Below, piece by piece: positions 27,355 to 36,087 of a stretch of DNA of 64,000 nucleotides. The notes under the pieces are model-generated. The model saw only the letters and a list, made by a program, of their open reading frames with translations, was not told the origin of the DNA and did no database searches. Every line of letters begins with the position of its first letter. The first letter of the stretch is position 1. This DNA is from Myxococcales bacterium. GTDB lineage: Bacteria; Myxococcota_A; UBA9160; SZUA-336. The stretch is taken from assembly GCA_013215565.1 (NCBI GenBank), contig JABSQV010000017.1:1-64000 (forward strand), read 5' to 3'. Made by a program: the position numbers and the translations under genes.

Positions 27355-29536
<2,182 letters not shown>

Positions 29537-29540
<4 letters not shown>

Positions 29541-30019
29541 GACCCCGCCCCCAGGGGCTCGGGCTTCTGTGCCTCATGCGGGTGCTCGGGCCCGGCGTAA
29601 ACGCGCAGCTTCATCAGCAACTTTCGGCCGAGTCGGGTCTTCGGAAGCATGCCTCGCACCGCACGCTCGACCACGCGCTCCGGATGCGTCTCGAGCAGCC
29701 GGCCCGCCGTCACCGACCGGAGTCCGCCGGGGTAGCCGCTGTGCCGGTGGTATACCTTGTCTTCGCGCTTCTTCCCGGTCAGTGCCACTTCGCGGGCGTT
29801 GATCACGATCACGAAGTCCCCGGTATCGGCGTGCGGCGTAAAGATCGGCTTGTGCTTGCCCCGGAGCACCGTCGCGATCCGGCTCGCCATCCGCCCCAAG
29901 ATCTGGCCGCGCGCATCCACCACGTACCAGCGGCGGTCGGCATCCTCGGTTCGGATGCTGCGCGTAGACGCCACGCGCGAGAGCGCGGCTCGGGGTCGGG
30001 CGGTTTCGGCGAGGGACAT
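29537..30019 (-). CDS. rplM: 50S ribosomal protein L13
   Basis: [72 protein letters not shown]; start ATG 30019. Confidence 0.97.
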
Positions 30020-30052
30020 CGGGCCTCCGTGAACCTGGAAGGCGCGCGGGAC

Positions 30053-30081
30053 TTCATAGCCGATCGCTCCGCGGGGGTCAA
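30053..30081 (-). promoter_or_regulatory. Sigma-70-like promoter upstream of rplM-rpsI (TTGACC-N17-TATGAA)
   Basis: -35 at 30076-30081 and -10 at 30053-30058 with 17-bp spacer, between the truA stop and rplM start. Confidence 0.65.
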
Positions 30082-30120
30082 TCACGGCCGAGGCCCGAAG
30101 CACGCGGCCCTGCTCGGGAA

Positions 30121-30882
30121 TCATGCCGTGCGGCCGGAATCCGGGTAGACCACGCGCTCGAGACACAGGCCGTGAGGAGGAGCCGTGGGGCCGGCCCGCG
30201 CGCGATCCCGGGACTTCAGGATCTCGGGCAGTTCGTCTGCCGCCAGCCGCCCCTGCCCGACGGCGACCAGGGTACCGACGAGATTCCGCACCATGTAGCG
30301 CAGGAAGCCGCGACTCTCGGCCCGAATGCGCAACTCGTCGGCTTCGCGGTCCACGCGCAGCAGTCCGAGGGTACGACGGGTCTCTTCGTCAGGCGGAGGC
30401 CCGCCCGGGGCCCCGCGAAAGGCCCGAAAATCGTGCTGCCCGACGAGGTGGCCGGCGGCCCGCGCCATCTCGCTCTCGCGGAGCCGGCCCGGCACGTGCC
30501 AGCAGACGCGGCGCCGGAGCGGGCTCGGGGTGGCGCGCGCCAGAATCCGATAGAGATAGACCTTTGCAACCGCATCTCGGCGCGGGTCGAAGTCCGGTTC
30601 CGCGGGCGAGACCTCGAGCACGCGCAGGTCGTCGGGAAGCAGCGCGTTCAGGGCCCTCCGGACCCGGCCCGGCGCGAGCCGGCCGGCGTAATCGATCACG
30701 GCCACCTGCCCGCGCGCGTGGACGCCGGCATCGGTGCGCCCGGCGCCCTGCATGCGGCGCGGCTCGCCCGCGAGTTTCTCGAACGCCGTCTCCAGTTCGC
30801 CTTGAACGCTGCGACCCCGGCTCTGGACCTGCCAGCCCTGAAAGTCGCTTCCGTCGTACTCCAGCGTCAGTCGCAGCCGCAC
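30121..30882 (-). CDS. truA: tRNA pseudouridine(38-40) synthase, GTG start
   Basis: [73 protein letters not shown] 30882. Confidence 0.95.
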
Positions 30883-31904
30883 AACGCTTCCGCGGCCTCG
30901 ACCGCCGCCAGGGCGGCCCCGCGACGCAAGTTGTCGAGCGCGATCACGAAGGCGAGGCAGTTGCTCCGCTCCGGATCCGCCCGCACGCGGCCCACCCAGA
31001 CAGAGTCGGTCCCGGTGACGCGACGCAGCGTCGGCAGTACTGCTTCCGGGAGCGGCTCGATTCCGGCGGCCTTGGCCCAGAGATCGTGCGCGCGGGCCGG
31101 CCCGAGGGCCTCGGAAAAGCGCGCATGAACACACCCGAGCACGCCCGAAAAGGCCGGAACGCGCACGCGCGTAGACTCGATCGGGAGGCCGGGAGCGGCC
31201 AACAGGCGCCGGAGCACATGCCGTAGCCGGCGTTCGCCCGAAGTTTCGCCGGCCTCGAGCAAGCCCCCGACCTCGGGAACGCAGTCGAAGGCCAGCGGTT
31301 CTGGAAAGACCCGGGCCTCGCCCGGCTCCCCCGTCATGTCTCCGAGCAGCTTGAGCGTCTGCTCGGAGAGTTCGGTCACGCCCCGACGGCCGGCCCCCGA
31401 AGCCGACTCGAGCGACACCACGGTGAGCCGTTCCAGCGGGGTCTGGTCCGCCAGTGGGCGCAGCGCAAGCCCCAGCCCGGCCGCGATCCCGCGCGGAATC
31501 GCGATCGAACGAGCCTCCGGATCTCTTGCCAGCGGCCAGAGCGGTGTCTCGGGGTCCAACTCCAGGCTGCCGCTCAGGTCGACGAGCGCCGCGCCACTCT
31601 CGCGAATCGCGGGCAGGAGCGGCTCGAGTGCTCCGGGGGCCGCGCAGAACACCAGGTCCGAATCGGCGATGCGCGAAGCATCCGTCGGCTCCGCCACGAC
31701 CTCGCTGCCCCGGAACTCGAGCCCGGCCGGCGCCCCGAAATCGCCACTGTCGTCGCTCGAGCCGAAGCAGCGGAGTTCGCCAACCGGAAACTCCCGCTCC
31801 CCGAGAATCTGGAGCAGTTCTTCTCCGACGAGCCCGGTCGCACCCAGCACCGTCACGCGCAAGTCAGCAGGCCTCACGCGGGCACCTTCCGGACTCGAAC
31901 GCAA
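30867..31904 (-). CDS. Aspartate-semialdehyde dehydrogenase homologue lacking catalytic residues (Usg-1-like)
   Basis: VTVLGATGLVGEELLQILGEREFPVGELRCFGS...SLESASGAGRRGVTELSEQTLKLLG...DNLRRGAALAAVEAAE; catalytic NPNC region reads IAIPRGIAAGLGLALRPL. Confidence 0.88.
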   Translation of the reverse strand: MRSSPEGARVRPADLRVTVLGATGLVGEELLQILGEREFPVGELRCFGSSDDSGDFGAPAGLEFRGSEVVAEPTDASRIADSDLVFCAAPGALEPLLPAIRESGAALVDLSGSLELDPETPLWPLARDPEARSIAIPRGIAAGLGLALRPLADQTPLERLTVVSLESASGAGRRGVTELSEQTLKLLGDMTGEPGEARVFPEPLAFDCVPEVGGLLEAGETSGERRLRHVLRRLLAAPGLPIESTRVRVPAFSGVLGCVHARFSEALGPARAHDLWAKAAGIEPLPEAVLPTLRRVTGTDSVWVGRVRADPERSNCLAFVIALDNLRRGAALAAVEAAEALCGCD

Positions 31905-32034
31905 CCCATGCGATCCGGCCCCGCTCGAATTCTACGTCGGGAGCCACGGCGGACAGCAGCCGGGCCGCCTCCTCGGTGACCCCGGGTCCGATCGCGTCAC
32001 CAGGCAGCGGCAGAGCAGCCGGCAAGGCGACGCC

Positions 32035-33582
32035 TCAGACTCCGCGAAGCTGAGAGGCTCCGGCGTCCTCGCGGCGAGCCAGTTTGTTCAGCGCGTGGAT
32101 GTAGGCCTTCGCACTCGCGATCAGGATGTCGGTGTCGGCTCCCTTGCCGATCACGCGCGCCTCGTCTTCTTCGAGCGTCACCGAGACCTCTCCCTGGGCA
32201 TCGATACCGCTGGTGATCGCGTTCACGTGGTAACGCAGCAGCCGAGGGTTGCGCCCCGAGAGTTCCCGAATCGCCTGGAACACCGCATCCACCGGGCCAT
32301 CTCCGACTCGCGCGAGCTTGCTGACCTCGTCGCCCACCTGGAGTTCCACCGTCGCGCTCGGCGTCGCCAGGGTCCCGCAAACGACCGATAGATTCACCAG
32401 CTTGAAGCGCTGATCGACCTGGAGCAACTGATCCGTGATCAGCGCCTCGATGTCTTCGTTGTAGACCGTCTTCTTGGCGTCCGCGAGACTCTTGAAGCCC
32501 TGGAAGGCCCTTTCGAAATCGATCTTCTCGGTGTCGAAGCCCAACTCCCGAATCCGGTCCGCGAACGCGTGGCGCCCGGAGTGCTTGCCGAGCACCAGTT
32601 CCGTGGCTCCGCGCCCGACCGATTCCGGCGTCATGATCTCGTAGGTGAGCTTGTTCTGGAGCATGCCGTGTTGGTGAATCCCGGCCTCGTGCGCAAAAGC
32701 GTTGTCCCCGACGATCGCCTTGTTCGGCGGCACGTTGATCCCGATAACCTGTTGCAACATCCGGCTCGCGGGATAGATCTCGCGTGCCTCGATCCGCGTG
32801 TCGCAGCCTTCGTAGAACTCCGGTCGCGTGCGGAGTGCCATCACTACCTCTTCCATCGCGGTGTTGCCAGCGCGTTCCCCGATGCCGTTCAGCGTGCACT
32901 CGACCTGCCGCGCGCCGGAACGGATGGCCGCCAGCGAATTGGCAACCGCGAGCCCGAGATCGTCGTGACAGTGCACGGAGAGCCGCGCCGCATCGATACC
33001 GGGCACCTGCGCACGCAGGTAGGCGATCAGGTCCGCGTACTCCTGGGGTGTGGTGTAGCCGACGGTGTCGGGAATGTTCAGCGTCGACGCGCCCGCTTCG
33101 AGCGCGCGGCGGCAGACCTGGACCAGGAATTCCCAGTCGGAGCGGGTGGCATCTTCGGGAGAAAACTCGATGTCCTCGGTATAGCCCCGCGCCCGCTCGA
33201 CTCCGCGCGAAACCTCCTCGAGCACGCGGTCGGGTCCCATGCCGAGCTTGTCCCGCATATGGATCTCGGAGGTCGCGATGAATACGTGGATGCGCCCGCG
33301 CTCCGCGTCGCGCAGCGCTTCGGCCGCGCGGTCGATGTCGTCGTTCTGGGTGCGCGCGAGACCACAGATGACAGGCCCGTGGACCTCGCGCGCCACCGCC
33401 CGTACGGCTTCGAAGTCGCCCTGAGAAGCGATCGGAAAGCCCGCCTCGATCACGTCGACGCCAAGCTTCGCAAGTTGACGCGCGAGGATGAGCTTCTCTT
33501 CGATGTTCATGCTGCAACCGGGCGCCTGCTCGCCATCCCGAAGCGTGGTGTCGAAGATCAATACTCTAGAGTCGTCTCGCAT
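32035..33582 (-). CDS. leuA: 2-isopropylmalate synthase
   Basis: LIFDTTLRDGEQAPGCSMNIEEKLILARQLAKLGVDVIEAGFP; SVHCHDDLGLAVANSLAAIRSGARQVECTLNGIGERAGN; C-terminal LeuA regulatory domain. Confidence 0.97.
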   Translation of the reverse strand: MRDDSRVLIFDTTLRDGEQAPGCSMNIEEKLILARQLAKLGVDVIEAGFPIASQGDFEAVRAVAREVHGPVICGLARTQNDDIDRAAEALRDAERGRIHVFIATSEIHMRDKLGMGPDRVLEEVSRGVERARGYTEDIEFSPEDATRSDWEFLVQVCRRALEAGASTLNIPDTVGYTTPQEYADLIAYLRAQVPGIDAARLSVHCHDDLGLAVANSLAAIRSGARQVECTLNGIGERAGNTAMEEVVMALRTRPEFYEGCDTRIEAREIYPASRMLQQVIGINVPPNKAIVGDNAFAHEAGIHQHGMLQNKLTYEIMTPESVGRGATELVLGKHSGRHAFADRIRELGFDTEKIDFERAFQGFKSLADAKKTVYNEDIEALITDQLLQVDQRFKLVNLSVVCGTLATPSATVELQVGDEVSKLARVGDGPVDAVFQAIRELSGRNPRLLRYHVNAITSGIDAQGEVSVTLEEDEARVIGKGADTDILIASAKAYIHALNKLARREDAGASQLRGV

Positions 33583-34396
33583 CCTGACCTCTGTCCTCCG
33601 GGCCTTCTGCCGTCTCCAGTTCAGAAGCCACCGCCCGGCTGCGGAACCCGCGGACCCAGAGCACCGGGCCCGAGACGACGTAGACTGCCCCGATCGCGAA
33701 CAGGACGGGCTCGTGATAGAGCAAAACGATCACGACGGCAAAGACCAGGGCGACGAACACCGGATAAGCGTTGCGGCGATCGATCCGAATCGCCTTCAGA
33801 CTCATGTAAGGAAGCGGGCTCACCATCAGCAGCGCCAGGATCGTGAACCCGACTGTGGCCGAGGTCCCGACCAGGGCGGGCAGCGGCGCATCAAAGCCGA
33901 GCCAACCCACGAACCACACGCTCACGGCCACCATGCCCCCGGCGAAGGTGCTCGGAAGCCCCTGATAGCGCTTAGACTCCTCGACCTGTTGGTGCACGTT
34001 GAAGCGGGCCAGACGCAGCGCCGCGCAGATCGTGAACACCGCCGCGACGACCCAGGCACGCGGGCCGAGCGGGGCCAGGGCCCAACTGTAGAAGAGCACC
34101 GCCGGTGCCACACCGAAGGAGATCACGTCCGAGATCGAGTCGTACTCGATCCCGAAGGGACTCGTCGAATCCGTGGCTCGCGCAACCCGGCCGTCGAGCA
34201 TGTCCGCAATACCGGCGAGTACAATCGCGAGTGCCGCGCGTTCGTACTGCTGGTTGAACGAGAGAATGATCGACCAGAACCCGAGCAACAACGCCGAGGT
34301 GGTGATCAGATTCGGAAGCAGATAGATCGCACGTCGCTCGCGCCGCCGGCTTCGGCGTCGCCTTTTGCGCCCGCGTCCACGCTCCCGGGGGCTCAA
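33566..34396 (-). CDS. pssA: CDP-diacylglycerol--serine O-phosphatidyltransferase
   Basis: YLLPNLITTSALLLGFW; DMLDGRVARATDSTSPFGIEYDSISDVISFGVAPAVL (CDP-alcohol phosphotransferase motif). Confidence 0.95.
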   Translation of the reverse strand: MSPRERGRGRKRRRRSRRRERRAIYLLPNLITTSALLLGFWSIILSFNQQYERAALAIVLAGIADMLDGRVARATDSTSPFGIEYDSISDVISFGVAPAVLFYSWALAPLGPRAWVVAAVFTICAALRLARFNVHQQVEESKRYQGLPSTFAGGMVAVSVWFVGWLGFDAPLPALVGTSATVGFTILALLMVSPLPYMSLKAIRIDRRNAYPVFVALVFAVVIVLLYHEPVLFAIGAVYVVSGPVLWVRGFRSRAVASELETAEGPEDRGQDARRL

Positions 34397-35061
34397 GAGA
34401 TCACCTCCGCAACGACGGTCTCTCCGCCGCGGACCCGGTCGCCCACTGCGACGCTGGGCTCGCAGCCCCGGGGCAGCAGCAGTTCTACACGTGAGCCGTA
34501 ACAGATAAGCCCGTAGCGCATACCGCGCTCAAGTTTGTCCCCCTCGTTCGCGTAGCAGACGATCCGGCGAGCAATCAGCCCCGTGATCTGCACCACCGCG
34601 ATTCGAAGTCCGGAGGCTGACTCGAGGTCGAGCCGGGACTGCAGGTTGCGGTTGGAAGCCTCCGGCCGGAACGCGGCCAGGAACCCGGAACCGCGGCGCC
34701 GCAGCGCCCGCACCTTTCCGGAAATCGGGATCCAGTTGACGTGTACGTCGAGCACCGAGAGGAAGATCGCGATCCGGTAGCCGGGACCGACCACCTCGTC
34801 GGCAGCCAGTGCTCCCGCCCCGGTCCGGGCCACCTCGAGCACGCGGCCGTCCGCGGGCGAGACCAGCCTGTGATCGCCATCCGGCACCACGCGCTCCGGG
34901 TTTCGAAAGAAGGCCAGGTTCAAGCCTGCGAGCAGCAGCAACACGCCTCCGGTCCAGGAAAAGCCGAGACCCAGGAGCCCGGCCGCAATTACGCCAAGGA
35001 CCCCCGAGAAGAGGTAACCCGGACGCGCGATCGGTCCCCGAAGTGCCTGCGGTGTCTCCAC
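34393..35061 (-). CDS. psd: Phosphatidylserine decarboxylase (short form)
   Basis: FFRNPERVVPDGDHRLVSPADGRVLEV; IFLSVLDVHVNWIPISGKV; MRYGLICYGSRVELLLP pyruvoyl cleavage site. Confidence 0.93.
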   Translation of the reverse strand: METPQALRGPIARPGYLFSGVLGVIAAGLLGLGFSWTGGVLLLLAGLNLAFFRNPERVVPDGDHRLVSPADGRVLEVARTGAGALAADEVVGPGYRIAIFLSVLDVHVNWIPISGKVRALRRRGSGFLAAFRPEASNRNLQSRLDLESASGLRIAVVQITGLIARRIVCYANEGDKLERGMRYGLICYGSRVELLLPRGCEPSVAVGDRVRGGETVVAEVIS

Positions 35062-35070
35062 CGGATCCCC

Positions 35071-36087
35071 TCAGTTGCGCGAACGATCGACCAGCTTACC
35101 CTCACTCAGGAAGGGCATCAGCGATCGCAGCTGCCGCCCGACCGCCTCGAGCGGGTGCTCTTCGCCCTGACGCGTCAGCGCGTTGAAGACCGGCTTCCCC
35201 GAGCGCGTCTCCAGCAGCCATTCGCGCGCGAACTCTCCGGTCTGAATTTCCGAGAGGATCTTGCGCATCTCGCTCTTGACCTGCTCATCGACGACGCGCG
35301 GACCTCGCGTGAGGTCGCCGTACTGTGCAGTGTTCGAAATCGTATAACGCATGTTCGAGATCCCGCCCTCGTAGATGAAATCTATGATCAGTTTCATCTC
35401 GTGGATGCACTCGAAGTAGGCCATCTCGGGTGCGTAGCCCGCGTCGACCAGCGTCTCGAAACCCGCCTGCATGAGCGCGGTAAGCCCACCGCAGAGCACG
35501 GCCTGCTCACCGAACAGGTCGGTCTCCGTTTCTTCCCGGAAGCTCGTTTCGATGATGCCCGAACGTCCGGCCCCGATGCCCTTGGCGTAGGCGAGCGCGG
35601 TCTCGAGGGTATCTCCGCTCGGATCCCGGTCGACGGCCACCAGCGCAGGCACGCCCTGCCCCTTCTTGTAGAGCGCCCGCACGATGTGTCCGGGACCCTT
35701 GGGAGCCACCATGAAGACGTTCACGCCCTCCGGCGGATGAATGCAGCCGAAGTGAATGTTGAAGCCGTGCGCGAGGCCCAGGTACCGTCCCTGCTTGAGG
35801 TGTTCCGCGACATCGCTTTCGAAGATTTCGCCCATCGTCTCGTCCGGAAGCGTCAGCATCACGATGTCGGCCTCGGCCGCGACGTCGGAGACCGACAGCA
35901 CCCGGAGACCTTCGGCTTCGGCCTTGGCACGACTCGAGGAGCCCGGGCGGAGCCCGACCAGAACCTTCACGCCGCTGTCCTTCAGATTGAGTGCGTGCGC
36001 GTGGCCCTGGCTGCCGTAGCCGATCACGCCCACGGTCCGCCCCTCGAAGCGGGCCAGATCTGCATCCTTGTCGTAGTAGACCTTCAT
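35071..36087 (-). CDS. ilvC: Ketol-acid reductoisomerase
   Basis: [79 protein letters not shown]. Confidence 0.98.

Follow-up and report, generated by a model that had tools for sequence, protein, structure and literature searches.

The window analysed here, a stretch of 64,000 nucleotides from a Myxococcales bacterium, contains between leuA and truA a gene whose product resembles aspartate-semialdehyde dehydrogenase (Asd) without the catalytic Cys of this enzyme. A sequence-only reading described it as a Usg-1-like Asd paralogue, repurposed rather than decaying. The locus therefore raises the question of what this protein is, whether it shares its descent with Usg-1, and why the gene is kept.

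Location, start and fold of the paralogue

The paralogue is read on the minus strand, from 31904 to 30867, a strand which the sequence-only reading did not name (Table 1). The TTG start of its longest open reading frame is doubtful, and the GTG at 31877 would be the likelier start because a GGAAGG lies seven bases upstream of it; the product contains 336 to 345 amino acids depending on the start. Pfam shows a Semialdhyde_dh domain (7e-16) and a Semialdhyde_dhC domain (2.6e-29), both matched over approximately their full length. The AlphaFold model of the window protein (pLDDT 89.5, pTM 0.87) has the Vibrio Asd2 2qz9 as its best PDB match (TM 0.84-0.86), and its comparison with the Pseudomonas Usg 2hjs gives a TM of 0.83-0.86. 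The Asd fold assigned from the letters alone is thus confirmed by the Pfam domains, the model and the PDB matches, and both this fold and the Rossmann cofactor motif are present according to Pfam, the model and the alignment. The window protein shares the full-length fold, the Rossmann motif and the dimerisation domain with type-II Asd (asd_B, NF011456/TIGR01296; Vibrio Asd2 2qz9 and M. tuberculosis Asd 3tz6), but six of the seven catalytic or substrate-binding residues are replaced and its scores are under the equivalog cut-offs: 202.5 against 223 for PRK14874 and 159.7 against 324.2 for asd_B.

Table 1. Features of the leu-truA cluster and of the paralogue, in window coordinates.
Feature	Position	Strand	Basis and remarks
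rplM - rpsI, downstream part of conserved order	29145..30166	-	Synteny; rplM start not refined
truA (tRNA pseudouridine 38-40 synthase)	30121..30882	-	GTG start at 30882; 16-bp overlap with paralogue
Cys-less Asd paralogue	30867..31904	-	Longest ORF 345 aa, TTG start 31904
R248...V255 (RVPAFSGV) replacing canonical RVPVxxGH	31140..31163	-	Arg retained, catalytic His lost
G223-E224-R225-R226 replacing canonical substrate-binding E-E-x-K	31227..31238	-	Alignment
E166 replacing active-site Gln (LESASG)	31407..31409	-	Glu in 8/8 family copies
P137-R138-G139 replacing canonical PNC	31488..31496	-	Alignment; catalytic Cys lost, G139 on Cys column
E115 replacing phosphate-binding Arg (SLELD)	31560..31562	-	Glu in 8/8 family copies
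Retained Rossmann motif GATGLVG (residues 21-27)	31824..31844	-	Three Gly in 8/8 family, 93-98% of class copies
leuA, upstream of paralogue	32035..33582	-	Gap of 130 bp; no leuB here
ilvC - psd - pssA, upstream part of conserved order	33566..36087	-	Synteny

Active-site residues of the window protein

The roles of the Asd residues (attack by Cys, assistance by His, two Arg, Glu and Lys) are those described in PMC12060211, and the H. influenzae mutants named in PDB titles (R103L, E243D, K246R, R270K and H277N) concern the same residue positions. Aligned with 34 intact Asds of its class, the window protein retains one of the seven catalytic or substrate-binding residues, the carboxylate-binding Arg (R248), while other residues take the place of Cys, Gln, His, the phosphate-binding Arg, Glu and Lys. 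The codons ATT CCG CGC GGG ATC GCG, at 31482-31499, encode I-P-R-G-I-A where canonical Asd shows (N/C)PNC(S/T)T, and no alternative Cys is found at the catalytic position in the alignment with intact Asds. The catalytic His column contains V255 (SGVLG), and H259, in GCVHARF, falls outside it. The substrate-binding Glu and Lys correspond to G223 and R226, respectively, and the adjacent Glu, E224, is retained. The three losses pointed out by the sequence-only reading, those of the catalytic Cys, the catalytic His and the Arg of the D(N)TSxFR segment, are all borne out, with G139, V255 and E115 in the respective columns. Both cofactor motifs, GxxGxxG and A-S/T-x-x-S-x-G, are retained.

Distribution and conservation in the class

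Sixty relatives were searched, and their asd/truA loci were retrieved and compared. This survey gave 46 readable copies linked to truA or leuA; besides the window copy, they comprise 43 whose contig also carries truA and two located at the edge of a contig. None of them contains the catalytic Cys, the phosphate-binding Arg or the Lys; one has the His and one has the Gln. All 34 unlinked copies of the asd_B type keep the seven residues. The linked copies have open full-length frames, and sequencing error, a chimera or chance are ruled out as the source of the Cys loss, since the 46 copies are concordant.

With the positions conserved in at least 93% of 109 intact Asds as reference, the paralogues retain scaffold residues such as the Rossmann glycines, D109, G172, P250 and R306 and the greater part of the A-S/T-x-x-S-x-G loop; nearly all the chemical residues are replaced. 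E115, R138, G139 and E166 are invariant in the eight sequences of the window's family, a set in which about one residue in two differs; 60 of 345 columns (17%) are invariant overall in this family, and the contrast with the fixed pocket residues is post hoc and suggestive. Outside the family the pocket varies, with G, P, S, A or D at the Cys column and E, H or V at the Gln column, which looks more like loss than like one conserved new ligand. None of the 42 class copies that fall outside this family carries the Gly conserved in the LRKGAA motif.

The order ilvC-psd-pssA-leuA-(leuB)-paralogue-truA-rplM-rpsI is recurrent across the class, so that the position after leuA and beside truA, already described for the window, is conserved class-wide. 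In 43 relatives truA mostly starts 2-30 bases past the paralogue stop codon, and a few show overlaps of four bases. Consequently, the previously described truA overlap of 16 bp is real with the GTG at 30882, but its exact extent is particular to the window genome. This spacing suggests that the paralogue may be translationally coupled to truA. In the region 31905-32034 leuB is missing, and leuA and the paralogue are separated by 130 bp here against about 1.1 kb in relatives. Other contigs of the window genome contain two Iso_dh homologues, and one of them is presumably leuB. Downstream of the cluster, pyrG (27355-28986) follows rpsI in the window and an argC-like gene follows it in many relatives.

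Catalytic Asd elsewhere in the genomes

A second, intact asd, whose search had been proposed in the sequence-only reading, was found on another contig of the window genome (3.8 Mb, 91% complete). Its product (L001) shows VPNCTT and CVRVPVPVGHS, with both Cys and His, and rules out the absence of any other asd in this genome. L001 exceeds the curated asd_B and PRK14874 cut-offs, both of which the window protein fails to reach, and to judge from the activity of its family it would carry out aspartate-semialdehyde synthesis. The window genome contains a single further Semialdhyde_dh match, located on contig C67 and presumably argC.

In genomes in which the survey showed no asd_B copy, the family search finds Cys- and His-bearing Asds of another kind, two examples of which belong to asd_gamma and asd_EA according to NCBIfam, and asd_B itself is polyphyletic in the class, with several places in the tree. 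The catalytic Asd has thus been exchanged among at least three families (asd_B, asd_gamma and asd_EA) while the Cys-less copy stays constant, which argues against the latter being tied to any single Asd; an obligate partnership with a single Asd type is rejected on this ground. A Cys-bearing Asd is found in nearly every adequately complete checked genome that has the paralogue. In G001, which is 58% complete, only the paralogue is seen.

Relation to Usg-1 and to other Cys-less Asds

The E. coli Usg (b2319; NF005957/PRK08040) likewise shows an Asd fold with Cys and Gln replaced and is encoded directly upstream of truA. It keeps the His, which is absent in the window protein, and its operon partner is pdxB, against leuA for the window gene. 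The P. aeruginosa Usg homologue (2hjs; NF004224/PRK05671) also combines an Asd fold with replaced catalytic Cys and Gln, but it has a Cys one position off the catalytic column, and Asp instead of His. Each of these two proteins exceeds the cut-off of its own NCBIfam model, and the window protein is below both (131.5 against 273 for NF005957 and 165.7 against 284 for NF004224).

Two trees were built, one of 89 rows and a careful one of 57 rows without the active-site columns. In both, the E. coli and Pseudomonas Usg proteins nest within gammaproteobacterial Asd. In the latter tree this nesting, which extends to a Cys-less copy from Steroidobacteraceae, is supported with 99/95 (starred), and the window protein is located in a Cys-less clade formed only by Myxococcota (98/97, starred). 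This clade also contains the paralogues L178, L185, L205, L207, L214, L222 and L183, from other families of the phylum, which, unlike those of the window's class, are mostly not immediately beside truA; the class copies form one clade (90/83) within it. Cys-less Asd paralogues not immediately beside truA are seen in the Myxococcota families f20, f22, f24 and f29 (L203-L215, L222). In the AU tests, the union of the class with the three gamma Usg gave p 0.0019, that of the Myxococcota Cys-less proteins with gamma Usg gave p 0.049 (0.010 with L153 added), and that of all Cys-less proteins, in the larger tree, gave p 0.0504, so that two of the four tests (0.049 and 0.0504) favour independence from Usg only marginally. 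The separation of both groups is conservative, because long branches would draw them together. Convergent inactivation, in which the Cys-less state of the window's class would have arisen independently of Usg, is favoured and not proven. The term Usg-1-like holds for the position and the chemistry, a Cys-less Asd fold directly upstream of truA, but not for descent, given the trees, the AU tests and the NCBIfam models.

Locus L153 (3043-3972 in G131, family f25; the same as L192) shows a Cys-less Asd with VASPTSGTVQ, which keeps the Gln and lies about 2 kb from truA. It nests among the intact Asds of its relatives and is apparently a more recent, separate inactivation; with this grouping, the tree contains at least three Cys losses. 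About half of the other Myxococcota loci sampled have an intact asd about 2 kb from truA, and it is compatible with this that the class paralogue is an old asd locus which lost its chemistry in place. In L148, L151, L166, L168, L176 and L184, the genes between asd and truA resemble, by eye, those of a surface protein of the MYXO-CTERM/fibronectin type and of a beta-barrel protein of the outer membrane.

Selection and gene loss

The NG86 dN/dS of the paralogue ranges from 0.10 to 0.44 in nine usable pairs and overlaps with that of truA (0.10-0.23); a few values of neighbouring genes are unusable, being saturated or truncated. In G053/G012, the only genome pair with both compared, the intact Asd shows 0.08 and the paralogue 0.15. 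These values show that purifying selection acts on the paralogue, at a level overlapping that on truA. G007, G017 and G025 (loci L283, L285 and L286) contain no paralogue, and only about 1.1-1.3 kb, the size of leuB, is found between leuA and truA, so that the gene has been cleanly lost there; the paralogue is thus useful in the class but can be dispensed with in these lineages. The proposal of repurposing instead of decay, previously based on the intact frame and its coupling to truA, gains support from purifying selection, class-wide retention and truA adjacency.

Discussion

Four other explanations were weighed against that of a pseudoenzyme. A new enzyme, whose pocket would have been rebuilt (R to E, N to R, C to G and Q to E) to take a different substrate and which would still carry out NADP(H)-linked or some other chemistry, would agree with the four residues fixed in a family that diverges at about half of its positions, but it is unlikely, since neither a nucleophile nor a general acid is evident, the pocket positions vary elsewhere in the class and the contrast with the 17% of invariant columns was drawn post hoc. 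It is rather improbable that the Cys-less copy is a regulatory subunit that joins the intact Asd in heterodimers or mixed tetramers and tunes its activity: its dimerisation domain is full length and a Cys-bearing Asd accompanies it in nearly every adequately complete checked genome, but a fixed heteromeric partner is expected to follow its subunit, and the paralogue is one clade whereas the intact Asds come from three curated families, asd_B being polyphyletic.

Membership of the Usg-1 family by descent, either by transfer or from a shared Cys-less ancestor, is very unlikely. The shared fold, the missing Cys and a position immediately before truA, which E. coli usg also has, speak for it, and the union of all Cys-less proteins and that of Myxococcota with gamma Usg are only marginally rejected; against it, gamma Usg lies inside gamma Asd even with the active-site columns removed, its union with the class is rejected (p 0.0019), the losses differ (the His is present in the E. 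coli Usg and absent in that of Pseudomonas) and the Usg cut-offs are not reached. Least credible is a decaying relic whose frame is kept only for delivering ribosomes to truA by translational coupling. Such a relic would fit the short distance to truA, or the overlap, that most genomes show, and the clean losses in three genomes. It does not fit purifying selection at the amino-acid level in the range of truA, the retention of the gene across the class, the full-length frames that stay open in linked copies or the new residues fixed in the family.

The best-supported reading overall is that the window gene probably encodes a non-catalytic, cofactor-binding Asd-fold pseudoenzyme of the leu-truA cluster. 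To judge from its residues, the protein would not be an aspartate-semialdehyde dehydrogenase and, by descent, is probably not a Usg-1. Alignment and synteny show that the catalytic pocket was already dismantled in an ancestor of the class, if not before. Sequence and model show that the Rossmann half and the dimerisation fold persist, which makes NADP(H) binding and dimerisation likely, and the fixed E115, R138, G139 and E166 suggest a changed pocket, for another ligand or for the cofactor only. From its co-production with TruA and branched-chain enzymes, the protein might, tentatively, act as a regulator or scaffold without catalysis, tying nucleotide or metabolite state to the operon, perhaps to TruA. 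Loss of TruA (HisT) in enteric bacteria derepresses amino-acid operons, and a metabolic input to this operon is therefore plausible.

To our knowledge, Usg is a gene beside truA without known function. The only work retrieved by a full-text literature search on usg concerns the operon and intracellular survival in Salmonella (PMC6358828), and a search for Asd pseudoenzymes and USG-1 gave no matches. For annotation, the Cys-less copy L059 (3986-4990) is a trap: it passes the NCBIfam PRK14874 Asd equivalog (230.5 against 223) and would automatically be labelled an active Asd, and NF005957 names the E. coli Usg as Asd. Since Cys-less copies can pass such models, pathway reconstruction may count a dead protein as a lysine/threonine enzyme. 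By alignment, a class-wide Asd pseudoenzyme is confirmed, analogous to Usg-1 and probably not homologous to it by direct descent. As a more speculative suggestion, Asd may, on at least two independent occasions (gamma Usg and this class), have become a partner without catalysis for the leu-truA cluster, which would imply that an Asd-fold cofactor or metabolite sensor repeatedly evolves to act together with tRNA pseudouridylation or with the control of branched-chain amino acids. This apparently independent class-wide case, with its fixed pocket residues, swapped Asds and natural deletions, provides comparative handles, through the organisms in which such a protein is retained or lost.
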